DNA of 64,000 nucleotides from a virus: positions 1 to 64,000 of IMG/VR virus record IMGVR_UViG_3300036945_000368. One strand, written 5' to 3'. Within the stretch, counting starts at the first letter, position 1, and each line of letters opens with the position of its first letter. Both the position numbers and the translations under genes were made by a program. Under the pieces are notes generated by a model. That model saw nothing but the letters and a program-made list of their open reading frames with translations, had not been told where the DNA came from and ran no database searches. Of the stretch, positions 11,633-35,259 are shown in pieces.

Positions 11633-12532
11633 TTAACCTTCCTTTACGTTGTTAGGGATTAGTTGACGAAATTGAATCCAACCGCGTAGGTTACCGCTGT
11701 ACGGGACACCTTTTGTATCGACATGTGTTATACCTTTAATATTTAGATAAGTTGGAATATCCTCAGGGAATATCAGCGTAGCGATATGCTCAACTGGTGA
11801 TGCATGTACTGGCACTGAGTTAATCAATCGATCAAACACCATAGAAGCCTTCTCTAAGCTGCCATCGTTTTTACGATAACTGACTTGAGCGCAACAGCTG
11901 GCACTAATCATACGAGCCTCTTCCATAGTGATGTACTTGTCATGTTCATCCAAATAGAAGCGTTCATTAGTATGTGCATCACGATATGTTTTTACATAAG
12001 GTACGTGCCATTCACCAACAGATAAACTCTCTGGAATATTTGCAGTATATTCAATGCACATCACAGCTGCAAGTTCTGCAATTTCTGGTTGTGCATCTTC
12101 ATGGTCACGTAACCAGAACCAGTTATTGTAGTCTGTAGCAGTTACGATTGTCTTCATTAGTTGATATGGCTCAAGTATGCGGTTTACAATTTGTTTATGT
12201 AATCCTACATCCTTCATAGCCTTAGCATACTTTACTGCGCTATCACGAGAAGCTAACCATAATGTCTTTGCGCGTTCAATTTCAGATACTTCAGTCTTAG
12301 CTTGCATACCTGCTTGGTTAGCACCCCAATGCACAGGCATAGCTGGCGTAGTCTCAACCAGTTCAATAACCTTGTCAATTGGAATAGCCCGAGAACTAGC
12401 AGCATTACGACTAAACATGCGATGCGTCATCAGCTCACCATGAATAAAACGTGGATAGACTAATTCAAACGTAGTGAGACGCGAATTGAGAAATGGGTTA
12501 TAACTGTCTGCAATAATTTTAGCTGTAATCAA
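11633..12532 (-). CDS. thyX: Flavin-dependent thymidylate synthase-like protein ThyX (299 aa)
   Basis: ThyX makes dTMP from dUMP using methylene-tetrahydrofolate and FAD. The signature RHR-x7-S appears as THRMFSRNAASSR (residues 36-48), with Thr in place of the first Arg, the expected His37 and Arg38, and Ser46. The C-terminal half has the usual HASPVEHIAT and SGNLRGWIQFRQ elements. At 299 residues it is longer than typical bacterial ThyX (about 220-250). Together with the dCMP deaminase at 16704 it would give a route from dCMP to dTMP. An altered specificity is possible given the TAGT-type gene. Confidence 0.85.
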   Translation of the reverse strand: MITAKIIADSYNPFLNSRLTTFELVYPRFIHGELMTHRMFSRNAASSRAIPIDKVIELVETTPAMPVHWGANQAGMQAKTEVSEIERAKTLWLASRDSAVKYAKAMKDVGLHKQIVNRILEPYQLMKTIVTATDYNNWFWLRDHEDAQPEIAELAAVMCIEYTANIPESLSVGEWHVPYVKTYRDAHTNERFYLDEHDKYITMEEARMISASCCAQVSYRKNDGSLEKASMVFDRLINSVPVHASPVEHIATLIFPEDIPTYLNIKGITHVDTKGVPYSGNLRGWIQFRQLIPNNVKEG

Positions 12533-13023
12533 GCTGGTTCCTTTCGTAAAATTTTATTTGTTGGGAATGCTACTAATGTAACTGACCCACCCTTAGCTTT
12601 AACAGCATCTGCAAAGCCCTGTAGCATGCCTAGAATTCGCTCTCTATTACCGCCAGCTAGTCCCATACCAATATACGGAAAACCGAAGTCACGGTGACCA
12701 TGTTCTTTAACCAAACGGTCTAGGATTTTCTGGAAAGCTTCGTACTCAAAGTAATCACCCTTGCTGTCATAACCCTTAGCAAAATCATATTGAGTATAGG
12801 CGTTGATAACGGTAATAGGTCCATACATGATACTGTAAGTCCCAAGTTTACTACGTTCTCCATAATAAGTCAAGCAATCTGCTGCATAAGCTGCAGGAAA
12901 CTCTGCCTTAATCTGTTTAGCAATGCCCTTGCCCATAGTACAAAAGCAATTACAGCCATGCACAATATAGTTGAAATGCCCTTGACGAGCTAATTCAATC
13001 AAATCACCTTCTAAGTGTTTCAT
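12529..13023 (-). CDS. Macro-domain ADP-ribose-binding protein (164 aa)
   Basis: The whole protein is a macro domain: GDLIELARQGHFNYIVHGCNC at the start, GKGIAKQIKAEFP, and FGFPYIGMGLAGG near the end. Macro domains bind ADP-ribose and may hydrolyse ADP-ribosyl-phosphate or ADP-ribosylated targets. The stop overlaps thyX and the start abuts the RNA ligase gene, so it belongs with the RNA-repair genes. It could clear ADP-ribose 1''-phosphate-type repair products or reverse host ADP-ribosylation defence. Neither is proven. Confidence 0.85.
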   Translation of the reverse strand: MKHLEGDLIELARQGHFNYIVHGCNCFCTMGKGIAKQIKAEFPAAYAADCLTYYGERSKLGTYSIMYGPITVINAYTQYDFAKGYDSKGDYFEYEAFQKILDRLVKEHGHRDFGFPYIGMGLAGGNRERILGMLQGFADAVKAKGGSVTLVAFPTNKILRKEPA

Positions 13024-13893
13024 TTATTTCCCTTCTATCTCTTCTAAAACTGCTCTGCGCTCTTGGTCATTGAAGCTTAACCAATCGTCTTTGGTAACTG
13101 CCCTCCATATTTCAAGTGGAAAGTTATACCAACCTCTCGGCAAAATTTTTGCAATATCGGTTGGATTGTTAAACATTATTTCAATATTCTTCGCTGACAT
13201 ACGCATAAGCTTTTTCTTACCTACATAATATGGTGTCTTAAGTTTGCATGCTGCAGTCTTCTCTGCACAATCTACACGGTAAATCATAAAACCTTCACCA
13301 CGGTCTGTTTCAGCTAAGGCAATAGCTTCTGCAAGTGTCATAACACCGATCAGGTTGTGTGGTGAAAATGTGCCGCTTGCCTTGTCACGAAACCCTAACA
13401 GATGTAAACCCATACTTTCGGCAACAATGTGTGGATCTTGTGGTACTACGACCTCAAACAATGTAGTGGATTCCTTCTCAATATTTGGTGCATGTTTCCA
13501 CCATTCATTAAGAATTAATTCCTTGGCCCACTGAGCATATTCAGAAGTTGTTGAGCCAGTAGTTGACACTACCAATTCATTATTATGCAAAGTAGCACAA
13601 GCCATGTAACCGTTAATTTTTTTATACACTTCAACTGGTGTATCTAAGTCTGTAGCAGCCCACCAGAGGTCATTCTCTTTGTAATTGAAGGACTTGCGTG
13701 GTGCAGCTTGTACTAGTTCTTTGGTTACTGAGTCGTAAACATGTCCCCTGCATTCGTGGAGGTCATACTCATTAAACCAGAGGTATTCGTACATAGCTCG
13801 GCGGTGGTACTTAAACGTAGTATATTTACCATCATTCTTCATGATAGCTAGACCACGGTTAACTAAGTTCATTTGTTCGTCAAAGTTTAACAC
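13024..13893 (-). CDS. T4 Rnl1-like RNA ligase (289 aa)
   Basis: ATP-dependent RNA ligases seal 5'-phosphate and 3'-OH RNA ends through an enzyme-AMP. Nucleotidyltransferase motif I is KINGYMA with adenylated Lys92. Motif III is around TTLFEVVVP, motif IV around GEGFMIYRV, and motif V KLKTPYYV. T4 Rnl1 is 374 residues, so the tRNA-specific C-terminal domain is reduced here. It overlaps the P-loop kinase gene (13880), as expected for an end-healing and sealing pair that repairs broken tRNA. Confidence 0.85.
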   Translation of the reverse strand: MLNFDEQMNLVNRGLAIMKNDGKYTTFKYHRRAMYEYLWFNEYDLHECRGHVYDSVTKELVQAAPRKSFNYKENDLWWAATDLDTPVEVYKKINGYMACATLHNNELVVSTTGSTTSEYAQWAKELILNEWWKHAPNIEKESTTLFEVVVPQDPHIVAESMGLHLLGFRDKASGTFSPHNLIGVMTLAEAIALAETDRGEGFMIYRVDCAEKTAACKLKTPYYVGKKKLMRMSAKNIEIMFNNPTDIAKILPRGWYNFPLEIWRAVTKDDWLSFNDQERRAVLEEIEGK

Positions 13894-14278
13894 TGAAACG
13901 CTCCTTCATTTGTCTGATTTTATCTTCTGGTACGTTGTGGATGTTAACACCATTATGACGATTTTCAACGATGATACTAACAAAATTTGCACCGCATTCG
14001 TCAGCAATTGCTTTGTATACTTCGACTTCACGTTCAGTAGTACTTGTATTCGATACAGCTACAGACTTACCCTTCTCAAGTACATACTTAGTGTTTAACT
14101 GACAGTATCGATGTGCCTCTGATAATCTGGCAGGATTGAACCGATAGAGACCATCGTGATAAAAGAAGTCATCAGCTTCAAAAATCCGTTCAACAATACC
14201 TGCCGACCATAATTGCATGGCAAAAGTAGACTTACCTGCGCCAGATACTCCACGGACTAGGTATAAGGTTGGTTTCAT
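13880..14278 (-). CDS. P-loop polynucleotide kinase-like protein (132 aa)
   Basis: The Walker A is GVSGAGKST (residues 10-18) at the N-terminus, with FEADDFF (33-39) as a likely substrate-binding Asp pair and SNTSTTEREV following. It resembles the kinase domain of T4 PseT and NEDD4-binding-protein-2-like kinases. It has only the kinase half, so it would phosphorylate 5'-OH ends but lacks a 3'-phosphatase domain. It precedes the RNA ligase gene with a 14-base overlap. Confidence 0.8.
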   Translation of the reverse strand: MKPTLYLVRGVSGAGKSTFAMQLWSAGIVERIFEADDFFYHDGLYRFNPARLSEAHRYCQLNTKYVLEKGKSVAVSNTSTTEREVEVYKAIADECGANFVSIIVENRHNGVNIHNVPEDKIRQMKERFSVKL

Positions 14279-14454
14279 TTCTTTCCTTTCAGTTTTAAAT
14301 ACTGTTCATCATCCAAATCACGAGCGCCAGCACAAGGCTTATTGATAGCTTTCTCCGTTGCTCGGTTACCTAAGCGTATTAGACCACACTTTCCGCAGTA
14401 AATGAACATACCCTTAGCATTTAATGTACGATTGAAATTATGACCTTGAATCAT
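14275..14454 (-). CDS. Small zinc-ribbon-like protein (59 aa)
   Basis: The start at 14454 is chosen for its GGGAGAG Shine-Dalgarno. An upstream frame extension is rejected because it overlaps the next gene. C-x2-C (YCGKCG) plus a later Cys suggest a metal site. It overlaps the kinase gene start by four bases. Confidence 0.65.
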   Translation of the reverse strand: MIQGHNFNRTLNAKGMFIYCGKCGLIRLGNRATEKAINKPCAGARDLDDEQYLKLKGKK

Positions 14455-14647
14455 TGTCTCTCCCGTAATTCCAACCACCCTTATCCCACGTATCAAACGT
14501 AGCTTTAGACATGCGGATATTGTGCTTAGGTAGTACTCTAGAAGTGCCAGAGAACCACTCAGATTCAAACGCACAAGACATAGATGCTAACTCATGTTCA
14601 TGACTTAATTCATAAAGCCACCAAGGTAAGGCATTATTCCAACTCAT
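14438..14647 (-). CDS. Hypothetical Trp-rich protein (69 aa)
   Basis: Six or so Trp residues (MSWNNALPWWLYEL, FDTWDKGGWNYGRD). The ATG at 14647 directly follows the aldolase gene's stop. The function is unknown. Confidence 0.65.
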   Translation of the reverse strand: MSWNNALPWWLYELSHEHELASMSCAFESEWFSGTSRVLPKHNIRMSKATFDTWDKGGWNYGRDNDSRS

Positions 14648-15304
14648 TTAATACCTACCGCTTGCAAGAACTATACGAGAGATATGCTCAAGTCGTTCAA
14701 TATGCTCATACGCTCTCCAAGGGCTAGTATCAATGGCGACAACACCGTGACCCTTGATACCTACAATATCATAGTAAATGTTGCCAGAGCGATCTAACCC
14801 TAAATTTTCAAAGCATTTATCTGCCAATTCTTGACTAATTGGAGGAACATCCCCTACACTAGGTGCTACCTTAGTATAGCGATTAAGCTCTGGAAATGAT
14901 TCACTGATAGTACTCAGGTCAATACCAGCATGCATAGCGGCAATACAATAAGTAGGATGAACATGCACAACTACGCGAACATCGCCGCTATGTTGTCCCA
15001 TATTTTTCTGTAGGCCAAAGTGCAGAGGAATCTCTCCACTTGGTACTAAGTTTTTACTGATATCAGTATAGGGCAAATCTTGCCAAGTGTAGTTAAAAAT
15101 CGCAGAACCATTTCCACTATTAATCGTTCTATCAATACTGATTTTCTTAAACTGATCTGGTTGAAGCGTCTGCTTACGTGTACCACTAGGTGTGATATAA
15201 AAATGATCGCGGTCATGATGACGAATACTTACATTACCATCGCGGCTGGTAATCCAGTTACGCTTATAAGCATCTTGCAATACTTCGCAAATTGTCTCTA
15301 ACAT
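14648..15304 (-). CDS. Class II aldolase/adducin-family protein (218 aa)
   Basis: Family members cleave or epimerise sugar phosphates such as fuculose-1-phosphate or ribulose-5-phosphate using a divalent metal. Here GNVSIR (23-28), the SGE loop (89-91) with Glu91, the metal histidines of HVHPTY (H114, H116) and KGHG (H186) are all present, so it should be active. Such genes are uncommon in phages. Possible roles are supply of a sugar for modification or a shift in host carbon metabolism. Both are speculative. Confidence 0.85.
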   Translation of the reverse strand: MLETICEVLQDAYKRNWITSRDGNVSIRHHDRDHFYITPSGTRKQTLQPDQFKKISIDRTINSGNGSAIFNYTWQDLPYTDISKNLVPSGEIPLHFGLQKNMGQHSGDVRVVVHVHPTYCIAAMHAGIDLSTISESFPELNRYTKVAPSVGDVPPISQELADKCFENLGLDRSGNIYYDIVGIKGHGVVAIDTSPWRAYEHIERLEHISRIVLASGRY

Positions 15305-16003: not shown

Positions 16004-16710
16004 GCATACTCCTTCGGTATGTGATTATGCTTACTTATGTTTTCAAATGCAGTTAATATTTGCAAATTCCAAGGGACATGTAAGCCGCAAACTGTTTCAC
16101 CTCTGAGAGGTATGATGTGGTCTACATGATGCATTATACCTGTATCCAGAGTCAGTTGTTCGCAACGTTCGTAAATTAATCTAATTTGCTCTAAATGTTC
16201 TACAGTCAACCAAGAAGGAGTTGCTTTAAGTTTGGAAGCCCTGTATTTAGCATGATTAGCATTACACCTATCTTTATTTTTCTTTTTCCATGTAGAAGCT
16301 TGTTCCTTAACTTTAGTAGGATTATTTTGCCGATATTTTGCCGAACTTTGTTTATAATCTTCTGTAAAAATTGCATACTTAAGTTCATTCAATGCTCTTA
16401 GTATTTCTTTATTTTTCTCGTTATACTCATGCCGCGATTTTGCTCTACAAACTTTACAACAACTTCTGTACCCATCCGCACTGACCGATTCTTTAGAAAA
16501 TTCAAAAATAGGCTTCTCTGTTAAACAATCATTACAAATCTTATATGTCAAAACAGGGTAATTTTTTTGTGATAGTTTTGCAGTAATCTTTGATTGAGAT
16601 AGTCTACAAGACTTGCAGACATGTCGGTAACCAGTCTTACAGGAAGAACTTTTCGCAAATTGATTCAAAGGTTTTGTAAGATTACATTTTTTACAAATTT
16701 GTTCTAACAT
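15997..16710 (-). CDS. HNH endonuclease with two zinc ribbons (237 aa)
   Basis: Two CxxC...CxxC ribbons (residues about 6-35 and 58-88) precede a basic linker and an HNH core: HHVDHIIPLRG and CGLHVPWNLQILTAFENISK. The core is closely similar to that of 6014-6535, which carries one ribbon, so one probably derives from the other or both came from a common homing gene. It sits between dCMP deaminase and a membrane protein gene with short overlaps. Confidence 0.85.
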   Translation of the reverse strand: MLEQICKKCNLTKPLNQFAKSSSCKTGYRHVCKSCRLSQSKITAKLSQKNYPVLTYKICNDCLTEKPIFEFSKESVSADGYRSCCKVCRAKSRHEYNEKNKEILRALNELKYAIFTEDYKQSSAKYRQNNPTKVKEQASTWKKKNKDRCNANHAKYRASKLKATPSWLTVEHLEQIRLIYERCEQLTLDTGIMHHVDHIIPLRGETVCGLHVPWNLQILTAFENISKHNHIPKEYAW

Positions 16711-17156
16711 AGTTGTGTCTCACTGTACTGTTGAATTCTTACACCAGAACCTTCTAGCAAATCTAAGCCAGATGCATCACGGTAAGGTGTCTTGTAGACT
16801 ATGCGTTTAACGCCAGCTTGAACCATCATAGCGCTGCATTGTACGCAAGGTGCAAGTGTAACATACACAGTTGAATCAACACAGCTTACACCCTCTCGTG
16901 CAGCTTTCAAAATACAGTTCAACTCTGCATGAATTACTTCTGGTTTTGTAACTCGTGTAACAAACCAATCCTTATCGATAAGTTCTTCTTCACAGCAGTT
17001 ATCACGCCCTTTAGCAGTGCCATTATAGCCAGTGAGGGTTACCCCGTGACTAGTGACTAAAACAGCTCCTACCTGCGCTCTAACAGCCTTTGAGAGCATT
17101 GCATGAGTTAGTGCTGTCTGCATGTAGACGCTATCAAGTTCTTTTTGACTAGCCAT
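16704..17156 (-). CDS. Deoxycytidylate deaminase (150 aa)
   Basis: Converts dCMP to dUMP, the ThyX substrate. The zinc site is complete: HAE (76-78) and PCVQC (103-107). The length matches the family, and the C-C-E-E-E insert after residue 53 resembles the allosteric, dCTP-regulated phage enzymes. The start at 17156 follows AAAGGTG. It is separated from thyX by about 4 kb in the same array. Confidence 0.85.
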   Translation of the reverse strand: MASQKELDSVYMQTALTHAMLSKAVRAQVGAVLVTSHGVTLTGYNGTAKGRDNCCEEELIDKDWFVTRVTKPEVIHAELNCILKAAREGVSCVDSTVYVTLAPCVQCSAMMVQAGVKRIVYKTPYRDASGLDLLEGSGVRIQQYSETQLC

Positions 17157-30899: not shown

Positions 30900-31073
30900 A
30901 TGTTTATTAAAGTAGTAAAATGCCATGATAAGATGCTATGGTACTCTAAGCATGTTGGTGAAATATTTGAAGTTCTACGTGAAGAGGAAGCTATCTATTG
31001 GGCTAGGGAACGAAACTTATGGAACTGTTTAAATTGGATTCGTAAACTAGATTGTGAGGTAGTAGATGGCTGA
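30900..31073 (+). CDS. Conserved small phage protein (57 aa)
   Basis: The pattern KVVKCHDKMLWYSKHVGEIFEV then NLWNCLNWIRK is shared by short proteins in other phages. It may form a small SH3-like barrel. The start at 30900 follows AAAGGAG. Confidence 0.7.
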   Translation: MFIKVVKCHDKMLWYSKHVGEIFEVLREEEAIYWARERNLWNCLNWIRKLDCEVVDG

Positions 31074-31596
31074 AGTGTTTTTAACTAGTGACACTCATTG
31101 GGGTCATGTTGGGGTTTGTAAGTTTCTTGCCGATGATGGCACAAAATGCAGACCTTGGGATGACCCTGAAAAGATGAATGAAGATATGATTGACATGTGG
31201 AATAAAACTGTCGGACCTAAGGATAAAGTTTATCATTTAGGTGACGTAGTTATTAACCGCAGATTTTTATCATTGCTTTCACGGTTAAACGGAAGTCAAG
31301 TTCTAATCAAAGGCAACCACGATATCTTTCGATTAGAAGAGTACTTACCATACTATCGTGATATTCGAGCTTATCACTACCTTGACAAGTACATGTTGAC
31401 GCATATGCCTATTCATGAGGAATCATTAGGGCGATACGCTGGTAACATTCATGGACACTTGCATCAAAACAGAGTAATGAAGGATGGCAAAATTGACCCT
31501 CGTTACTTGTGTGTAAGTGTAGAACACACAGAATTTAAGCCTATTAACTTTGAAGAAGTTAAAAAGCGTTTTATAGCCCAACAGGAGAACGAATGA
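31066..31596 (+). CDS. Calcineurin-like metallophosphoesterase (176 aa)
   Basis: All the metal-binding motifs are present in order: SDTHWGH, GDVV, GNHD, LTHMP and GHLH. Members hydrolyse phosphoesters, including nucleotides and nucleic acid ends. The target here is unknown, but its place among nucleases suggests DNA or nucleotide processing. It overlaps both neighbours. Confidence 0.85.
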   Translation: MAEVFLTSDTHWGHVGVCKFLADDGTKCRPWDDPEKMNEDMIDMWNKTVGPKDKVYHLGDVVINRRFLSLLSRLNGSQVLIKGNHDIFRLEEYLPYYRDIRAYHYLDKYMLTHMPIHEESLGRYAGNIHGHLHQNRVMKDGKIDPRYLCVSVEHTEFKPINFEEVKKRFIAQQENE

Positions 31597-34275: not shown

Positions 34276-35259
34276 ATGCTAGAAAAATACCTGCTACCGA
34301 TCAATGAACGACCAGAACCTGTCGAGTTTGCAGACCAACAATTAAAAGTATTCTGGTTACCTGACGAAATTAAGGTCGAAAAGGATGTCCAGGATGTGTT
34401 AGTTAACTTTACTGAAGCTGAAAAGCATGCAGTTATTACCACCCTTAAATTATTCAGTATCTATGAAACCCACGCAGGTTCTGAATATTGGGGTGGTCGC
34501 TTTAAGGATATGTTTGATAGTGCGGAATTTCACCGCATGGGGTCCGTATTCTCTATGTTTGAATTGGCAGTGCATGCACCGTTCTATAATAAGATTAATC
34601 AACTATTGCATATTGATACTCCAGAGTTCTATATGTCGTATTTGGATAATGAAGTATTGAAAAGCCGTGTAGCACATATCGGTGAGATTATTGACCATCC
34701 TGATGATTTAATTTCGTTAGCTGCGTTTTCAATGGTAGAGGGTGTTATTCTGTACAGTTCATTTGCTTTCTTAAAGCATTACCAATCACAAGGTAAGAAT
34801 AAGTTAATGAATATTGTACGTGGTATTAACTTCTCTGTACGTGATGAGAATATGCATTCACAAGGTGGTGCATGGGCTTTCAAATATAAACTTGAACAGT
34901 TAAAGCAAGAGTTAACACCTGAAGCTTTTGAATTGCATAAATTAGCTATTGAATCTCAAGTTCGTGAAGTAGCTAAGAAAATTTATGAGCATGAGTGCCA
35001 GATTATCGCCATGCTATTTGAGAAGGGTGAAATTAAAGGTATTACTGCTCACCAACTAGAGAACTTCGTGCAGTCTCGTGTAAATGAATGCTTGAAGACT
35101 TTAGGTTTTGCTAAAGAGTACGATGTAAAATACAATCCGATTTCTGAGTGGTTCTACAAAGGAATTAACGATTATACCTTCAACGACTTTTTCTCAGGGA
35201 TGGGCAACCAGTATCACCGTAGTTGGGACAGTTCAGCGTTCGTATGGAATAAGGAATAA
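34276..35259 (+). CDS. nrdB: Ribonucleotide reductase small subunit NrdB (327 aa)
   Basis: The class I beta subunit holds the metal-radical cofactor. Candidate ligands are E64, E96, H100, E155, E191 and H194, with radical Tyr104 four residues after H100 as in E. coli (H118, Y122). The E96-x3-H100 spacing is one longer than the usual ExxH. The order nrdB-nrdA-thioredoxin is a self-sufficient dNTP module. Confidence 0.88.
   Translation: MLEKYLLPINERPEPVEFADQQLKVFWLPDEIKVEKDVQDVLVNFTEAEKHAVITTLKLFSIYETHAGSEYWGGRFKDMFDSAEFHRMGSVFSMFELAVHAPFYNKINQLLHIDTPEFYMSYLDNEVLKSRVAHIGEIIDHPDDLISLAAFSMVEGVILYSSFAFLKHYQSQGKNKLMNIVRGINFSVRDENMHSQGGAWAFKYKLEQLKQELTPEAFELHKLAIESQVREVAKKIYEHECQIIAMLFEKGEIKGITAHQLENFVQSRVNECLKTLGFAKEYDVKYNPISEWFYKGINDYTFNDFFSGMGNQYHRSWDSSAFVWNKE

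Follow-up and report, generated by a model that had tools for sequence, protein, structure and literature searches.

A kinase–ligase pair and a macrodomain gene in one operon of a freshwater phage: predicted RNA repair beside independent de-ADP-ribosylation

The kinase, ligase and macrodomain genes described here from a freshwater phage are best understood as two adjacent counter-defence functions carried in one operon, RNA repair and an independent de-ADP-ribosylation, a reading to which we give a probability of roughly 0.6. The locus lies in the 64,000-nt stretch of DNA analysed (the window), itself part of an 80,030-base IMG/VR virus record. The isolate closest to it is Limnohabitans phage DC31 (76 kb), with 60% identity between the ligases. 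As proposed, the kinase would place a 5'-phosphate on RNA cut by host nucleases, most likely tRNA, and the Rnl1-type ligase would then seal it. The 3' end would be healed by a stand-alone metallophosphoesterase, encoded next door in most relatives; in the window phage this task probably falls to a divergent phosphoesterase gene at 31066-31596, or else to a host enzyme. The macro protein would work independently as an ADP-ribosyl hydrolase of the SCO6735/DarG/TARG1 class, undoing the ADP-ribose of a host defence enzyme, its target being ADP-ribose on nucleic-acid bases or a small ADP-ribose derivative or signal. A gene exchange in the window clade would have put its gene where the phosphoesterase otherwise stands; it would not be a substitute 3'-phosphatase. 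Gene identity, motifs, folds and neighbourhood statistics are what was observed; what the proteins catalyse, which RNA they target and what the macro protein acts on are inferred from these.

Operon, kinase and ligase

The three coupled reading frames that the first-pass annotation had assigned to a P-loop kinase, an Rnl1-like ligase and a macro domain were confirmed on the minus strand, where kinase (14278-13880), ligase (13893-13024, with a GTG start) and macro gene (13023-12529) follow one another in this order. The kinase start forms an ATGA with the end of the upstream reading frame (14275..14574, minus strand, same operon; weak match to phrog_7020), kinase and ligase overlap by 14 nt, the macro ATG comes directly after the ligase TAA, and the macro TGA overlaps the start of the following gene as TTGA. 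Each of the three is preceded by a Shine-Dalgarno-like stretch. The operon is longer than three genes, running on into thyX (flavin-dependent thymidylate synthase, 11633..12532, minus strand) and then into an HU-like gene; a promoter and terminator scan returned signal no better than that of shuffled sequences. Comparison of the window with three relatives (Nei-Gojobori) gave dN/dS ratios of about 0.18-0.27 for the kinase, 0.11-0.15 for the ligase and 0.06-0.09 for the macro gene, so that purifying selection is strongest on the last of these, and ratios this low identify all of them as real, constrained genes. Two genes upstream of the kinase, the window encodes a class II aldolase/adducin-like protein (14648-15304; PF00596, 1e-25), shared with the near-identical contig L003 and absent from the other clade members examined. 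A dCMP deaminase gene (16704-17156), thyX and a gene at 34276-35259, the last with 90% identity to the ribonucleotide reductase beta subunit of DC31, make up a nucleotide-supply set as in pakpunaviruses.

The kinase (132 aa) is a P-loop kinase of the polynucleotide-kinase type consisting of the kinase domain only (PF13671, 1.6e-7; phrog_2071, 5e-39; phrog_505, 'polynucleotide kinase', 1e-8), with the P-loop GVSGAGKST and the conserved motifs EADD and VENRH...HxxP. Searches of the PDB with single sequences were weak for the kinase and for the macro protein, and profile searches resolved both. The kinase profile, built from 36 sequences in which the Walker A Lys16 and D36 are invariant, matches T4 PNK, Pnkp1 and the kinase domain of Clostridium thermocellum Pnkp (CthPnkp). 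The predicted structure (pLDDT 85.5) is closest among solved structures to T4 PNK (1ly1; Z 14.3, rmsd 3.9, 130 residues aligned), followed by Pnkp1 (Z 13.1) and CthPnkp (Z 12.8). With its P-loop fold, Walker A motif, catalytic Asp and PNK as nearest relative, the protein falls among the T4 PNK-type kinases. Because O-phosphoseryl-tRNA kinase also scores Z 13.0, the fold alone leaves the substrate unfixed; profile and neighbourhood together point to RNA 5' ends. The observation that the 3'-phosphatase half of PseT is missing was upheld: the reading frame stops at residue 132, the C-terminal HAD 3'-phosphatase domain of T4 Pnkp (PseT) is absent from it, and PNK3P (PF08645) has no match in the 80-kb record.

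The ligase (289 aa; phrog_562, 3e-38) is of the Rnl1 type and has all nucleotidyltransferase motifs, comprising motif I KINGYM (K91), R48, E146, E199-G200 and K216/K218. Motifs I, III, IV and V are accompanied by similarity to T4 RNA ligase 1, the sole PDB match, and PF09511 (8e-9) is above its cut-off. Among 17 diverse phage ligases 27 residues are invariant, the nucleotidyltransferase motifs included; this alignment was too divergent for a pattern scan, for which closer alignments were taken. The T4 RnlA equivalog model TIGR02308 scores 30.8 bits against a cut-off of 242 over the whole protein and covers residues 22-179 only. The protein is accordingly described here as a predicted distant, shorter relative of Rnl1.

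The usual third partner of the pair

The kinase–ligase combination, predicted to serve RNA repair, is widespread among phages: by tblastn the ligase occurs in 601 phage records and the kinase in 613, with an almost identical spread over genera. Neighbourhoods were counted within 2.5 kb of 53 distinct ligase genes drawn from viral contigs and isolates. A kinase occurs in 50 of these loci, a phrog_547-type metallophosphoesterase in 39 and a macro gene in 7 (the window clade itself accounts for five), figures that are inflated because some loci were found via the kinase or the macro gene; in the subset of 35 loci found through the ligase only (counted by hand from the 53-locus table), the respective numbers are 33, 25 and 6. 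When whole records with the kinase–ligase pair are considered, 17 of 21 encode the phosphoesterase and the remaining four are fragments of 13-21 kb, and control loci with a macro gene and no ligase show no such phosphoesterase. Furthermore, kinase and phosphoesterase are paired in the absence of an Rnl1-type ligase (22/40 distinct loci). Their pairing with and without that enzyme suggests that the two heal ends as a pair whose ligase partner varies. Given 1,261 records across all phages, more than those of the kinase–ligase pair, the phosphoesterase is not exclusive to the pair. The stand-alone enzyme is the obvious candidate to supply the 3'-end healing that seems to be 'missing', and since a kinase without the PseT phosphatase usually has such a separate metallophosphoesterase, 3'-end healing need not fall to the macro protein. 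Within the kinase loci that have no Rnl1 (L105-L170), the phosphoesterase comes directly after the kinase, and 4 of 8 kinase–phosphoesterase loci inspected have an RNA ligase of the Rnl5/DRB0094 type no more than 7 kb away; kinase, phosphoesterase and Rnl5/DRB0094-type ligase apparently make up an alternative phage RNA-repair module.

In relatives of the window phage a metallophosphoesterase occupies the operon position of the macro gene, as in the DC31-like order kinase-ligase-(small ORFs)-phosphoesterase-[thyX]-HU. Occupation of this slot by the macro gene is confined to the window clade (L003-L007) and L026/L034, and with L040 there are three lineages that have it within 2.5 kb of the pair. 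G009 and G023 keep an operon-type phosphoesterase in the slot and carry a macro gene about 10 kb from the pair; the L034 clade combines a macro gene in the slot with an operon-type phosphoesterase elsewhere. A search of 15 related kinase–ligase records over their full length, fragments among them, turned up a macro gene in just two; five of the 13 without it are 74 kb or longer. The swap in the window clade is a probable gene exchange. On these neighbour statistics (7/53 loci; 13/15 records without a macro gene) we reject a fixed kinase-ligase-macro cassette. The first-pass annotation had called for a survey of conserved co-occurrence and had named beforehand a wide variation of the neighbours in related phages as the finding that would speak against a cassette; such variation is what was found, the pair standing mostly without an adjacent macro gene. 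What survives of its RNA-repair reading is that a 5'-polynucleotide kinase and an Rnl1-type ligase could mend cut RNA; the notion of one conserved three-gene unit does not.

The window phage itself retains a phrog_547 metallophosphoesterase (176 aa; 31066..31596, plus strand), flanked by endonuclease VII and DNA-polymerase exonuclease genes, as a candidate 3'-end healing enzyme. Its position is shared by contigs G002 and G005; in DC31 the site is taken by two small ORFs. Its metal-binding motifs are intact. Because it is divergent, with only 25-33% identity to the operon type, and is missing the operon-type C-terminal signature, its part in RNA repair is a putative one.

Class and possible roles of the macro protein

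The macro protein (164 aa; PF01661, 3e-6; phrog_335, 1e-42) is a macrodomain alone. Its predicted structure (pLDDT 85.7) has as best solved matches BT1257 (Z 18.3), DarG (17.6), TARG1 (17.0), Poa1p (16.6) and SCO6735 (15.1), and the profile search finds the same ALC1-like set. Gln78 stands at the position of DarG Lys80 and TARG1 Lys84, with H22, N25 and K32 kept; Q78 and N25 are invariant in the phage family, Q78 occupying the position of SCO6735 Gln85 in the profile alignment. ALC1-like nearest folds, Gln in place of the catalytic Lys and the supporting Asn assign the protein, by profile and modelled fold, to a predicted SCO6735/BT1257 subclass of the ALC1-like class. For SCO6735, the variant Q85A is inactive and N27S nearly so, and the enzyme strips thymidine-linked ADP-ribose from DNA and rescues Escherichia coli from DarT (PMC9411070). 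It also takes ADP-ribose off uracil in RNA (PMC13036486); accounts of its action on RNA phosphate ends are inconsistent inside PMC11833690. A DarG antitoxin was considered and rejected, given that Gln replaces Lys80 and that the C-terminal DarT-binding domain is missing; the DarG model NF048014 scores 23.3 bits against a cut-off of 250, and a PADLOC scan returned weak DarG and CARF matches alone. One phage contig (L051, 7417-9638) carries two genes of this macrodomain family about 1.2 kb apart.

The class membership is important in that a common phage family annotated as 'phosphatase' (phrog_335) is now placed among SCO6735/DarG-like hydrolases. The class predicts that the protein reverses thymidine or uracil ADP-ribosylation and may hence confer resistance to DarT-type or RNA-modifying defences. 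AdfA and AdfB, which also counteract DarT, are thought to do so by binding it (PMC11481870); enzymatic removal of ADP-ribose would be a different strategy.

Regarding the physiological substrate, a role in NAD+ metabolism is possible, if tentative. The protein would then act on cyclic or 1''-phosphorylated ADP-ribose and so supply free ADP-ribose to NAD+ reconstitution by NARP1 (Adps and NAMAT), or it would destroy a Thoeris-type signal; this is a narrower form of the macro half of the explanation that we favour. The macro family adjoins NAMAT more often than the ligase: of 38 distinct macro genes, 15 have NAMAT within 500 nt and 21 have it inside the locus, and the pakpunavirus gene order is ligase-kinase-Adps-NAMAT-macro. 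One of the closest folds belongs to Poa1p, which acts as an ADPR-1''-phosphate phosphatase, and the phage protein RyDEP turns cADPR signals into ADP-ribose for a NARP1 operon (PMC13232231). The sister contig G002 (L176, 26.2-29.8 kb) has a Prs-like gene (Adps) and NAMAT inserted and is otherwise syntenic with the window; the insertion adjoins the equivalent of window position about 25.8-26.2 kb, the site of tRNA-Arg(TCT), the window's only tRNA gene. However, neither Adps nor NAMAT was found in the 80,030-base window record, which may be incomplete, so that the macro gene stands here without the NAD+ genes that usually accompany its family. NAMAT was also not found in G005 or DC31, and the macro gene is kept in the window record and in G005, DC31 being without both. 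An ADP-ribosyl hydrolase able to work with or without NARP1 would fit the linkage to NAMAT together with the retention of the macro gene where NAMAT is missing.

Less likely is an integrated three-step repair, in which the macro protein would strip an ADP-ribose adduct from RNA, on a base such as uracil or on a terminal phosphate, before kinase and ligase restore the RNA, a scheme already put forward for the DRB0098-0100 operon of Deinococcus. The genes are contiguous and translationally coupled, the macro gene comes near the pair in the three lineages named above, a ligase, a macrodomain hydrolase of the PARG type and a kinase/HD-phosphatase come together in that Deinococcus operon (PMC11833690, PMC1997131), and SCO6735-class enzymes work on ADP-ribosylated uracil in RNA (PMC13036486). 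The macro gene stands beside the ligase throughout the window clade and a second clade, which runs counter to the two-function view; its strong selection and steady adjacency to the ligase could reflect a functional tie. Against this, 46 of the 53 loci with the pair have no adjacent macro gene, the near-relative records mostly have none at all, and the family is found more often beside NAMAT. Were the three-step process real, the operon would be the phage equivalent of the ligase-PARG-kinase operon of Deinococcus and would counter defences based on RNA-modifying ADP-ribosyltransferases, of which the mRNA-modifying system CmdTAC is an example (PMC11618068).

Direct healing of RNA 3' ends by the macro protein as a substitute 3'-phosphatase is very improbable. 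The gene occupies the exact operon slot of the relatives' metallophosphoesterase and its family bears the label 'phosphatase', but the active site retains ADP-ribosyl hydrolase residues, the genome still carries a phosphoesterase of phrog_547 whose metal site is intact, and in the L034 clade a macro gene fills the slot although an operon-type phosphoesterase is encoded elsewhere; on the strength of fold, residues and the phosphoesterase still in the genome we reject the proposal. The 3'-end processing considered in the first-pass annotation is thereby set aside, and its other suggestion, use against host ADP-ribose chemistry, stands as plausible. Least probable of all is that the macro protein degrades ADP-ribose phosphates arising from KptA removal of an RNA 2'-phosphate, a type of repair proposed for some jumbo phages (PMC7824862, PMC9503650): the 80-kb record, possibly incomplete, has no match to KptA (PF01885) or to a 2H phosphoesterase (PF13563), a KptA supplied by the host being still conceivable.

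Relation to known systems

RNA repair next to an independent ADP-ribosyl hydrolase, the reading preferred here, concerns a locus that is largely described already, and its novelty is modest. A kinase–ligase pair without the PseT phosphatase and with a macro gene nearby is on record for Pseudomonas phage Adele (Pakpunavirus), of which PaAdele_020, 022, 024, 025 and 026 were proposed as anti-defence genes (PMC12846349). What the present analysis adds is a locus count showing that the pair is usually accompanied by the phosphoesterase, the exchange of slot occupant within one clade, and an SCO6735-like subclass for the macro family. Adele likewise has a kinase without the 3'-phosphatase domain beside an RNA ligase and a macro gene a few genes away (PMC12846349); its macro gene follows NARP1 (Adps, NAMAT), whereas that of the window abuts the ligase and NARP1 was not found in the record. 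In the pakpunavirus K5 a phosphoesterase lies near the ligase, unlike in the window operon. The link to NARP1 NAD+ reconstitution operons is that relatives of the macro gene commonly adjoin NAMAT; in the window record Adps and NAMAT were not detected.

The analogy to tRNA repair by PseT (Pnkp) and Rnl1 of T4 consists in a 5' kinase of the same fold and an Rnl1-type ligase. The window kinase, however, is not fused to a HAD phosphatase, the ligase has 289 aa compared to about 374, and a macro gene follows the ligase. With bacterial Pnkp the phage would share the three expected activities, namely a CthPnkp-fold kinase, a metallophosphoesterase and a ligase, but it distributes them over separate polypeptides, uses an Rnl1-type ligase and, in its clade, keeps the phosphoesterase outside the operon. 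SCO6735 and BT1257 have in common with the macro protein the Gln at the catalytic Lys position, the active-site His and Asn, Lys32 and a longer loop after the Gln (PMC9411070); the macro protein differs in being phage-borne, in an identity of about 21-22% and in that its substrate is predicted. Lastly, DRB0098-DRB0099-DRB0100 of Deinococcus radiodurans resembles the phage locus in joining a ligase, a macrodomain ADP-ribosylhydrolase and a polynucleotide kinase in one operon (PMC1997131, PMC11833690). The ligase of that operon has been characterised as resembling ATP-dependent DNA/RNA ligases, and no sealing by it was detected (PMC1997131, PMC11833690), and the operon is distinct from the phage locus in its PARG-type macrodomain, in the fusion of its kinase to an HD phosphatase and in being bacterial.
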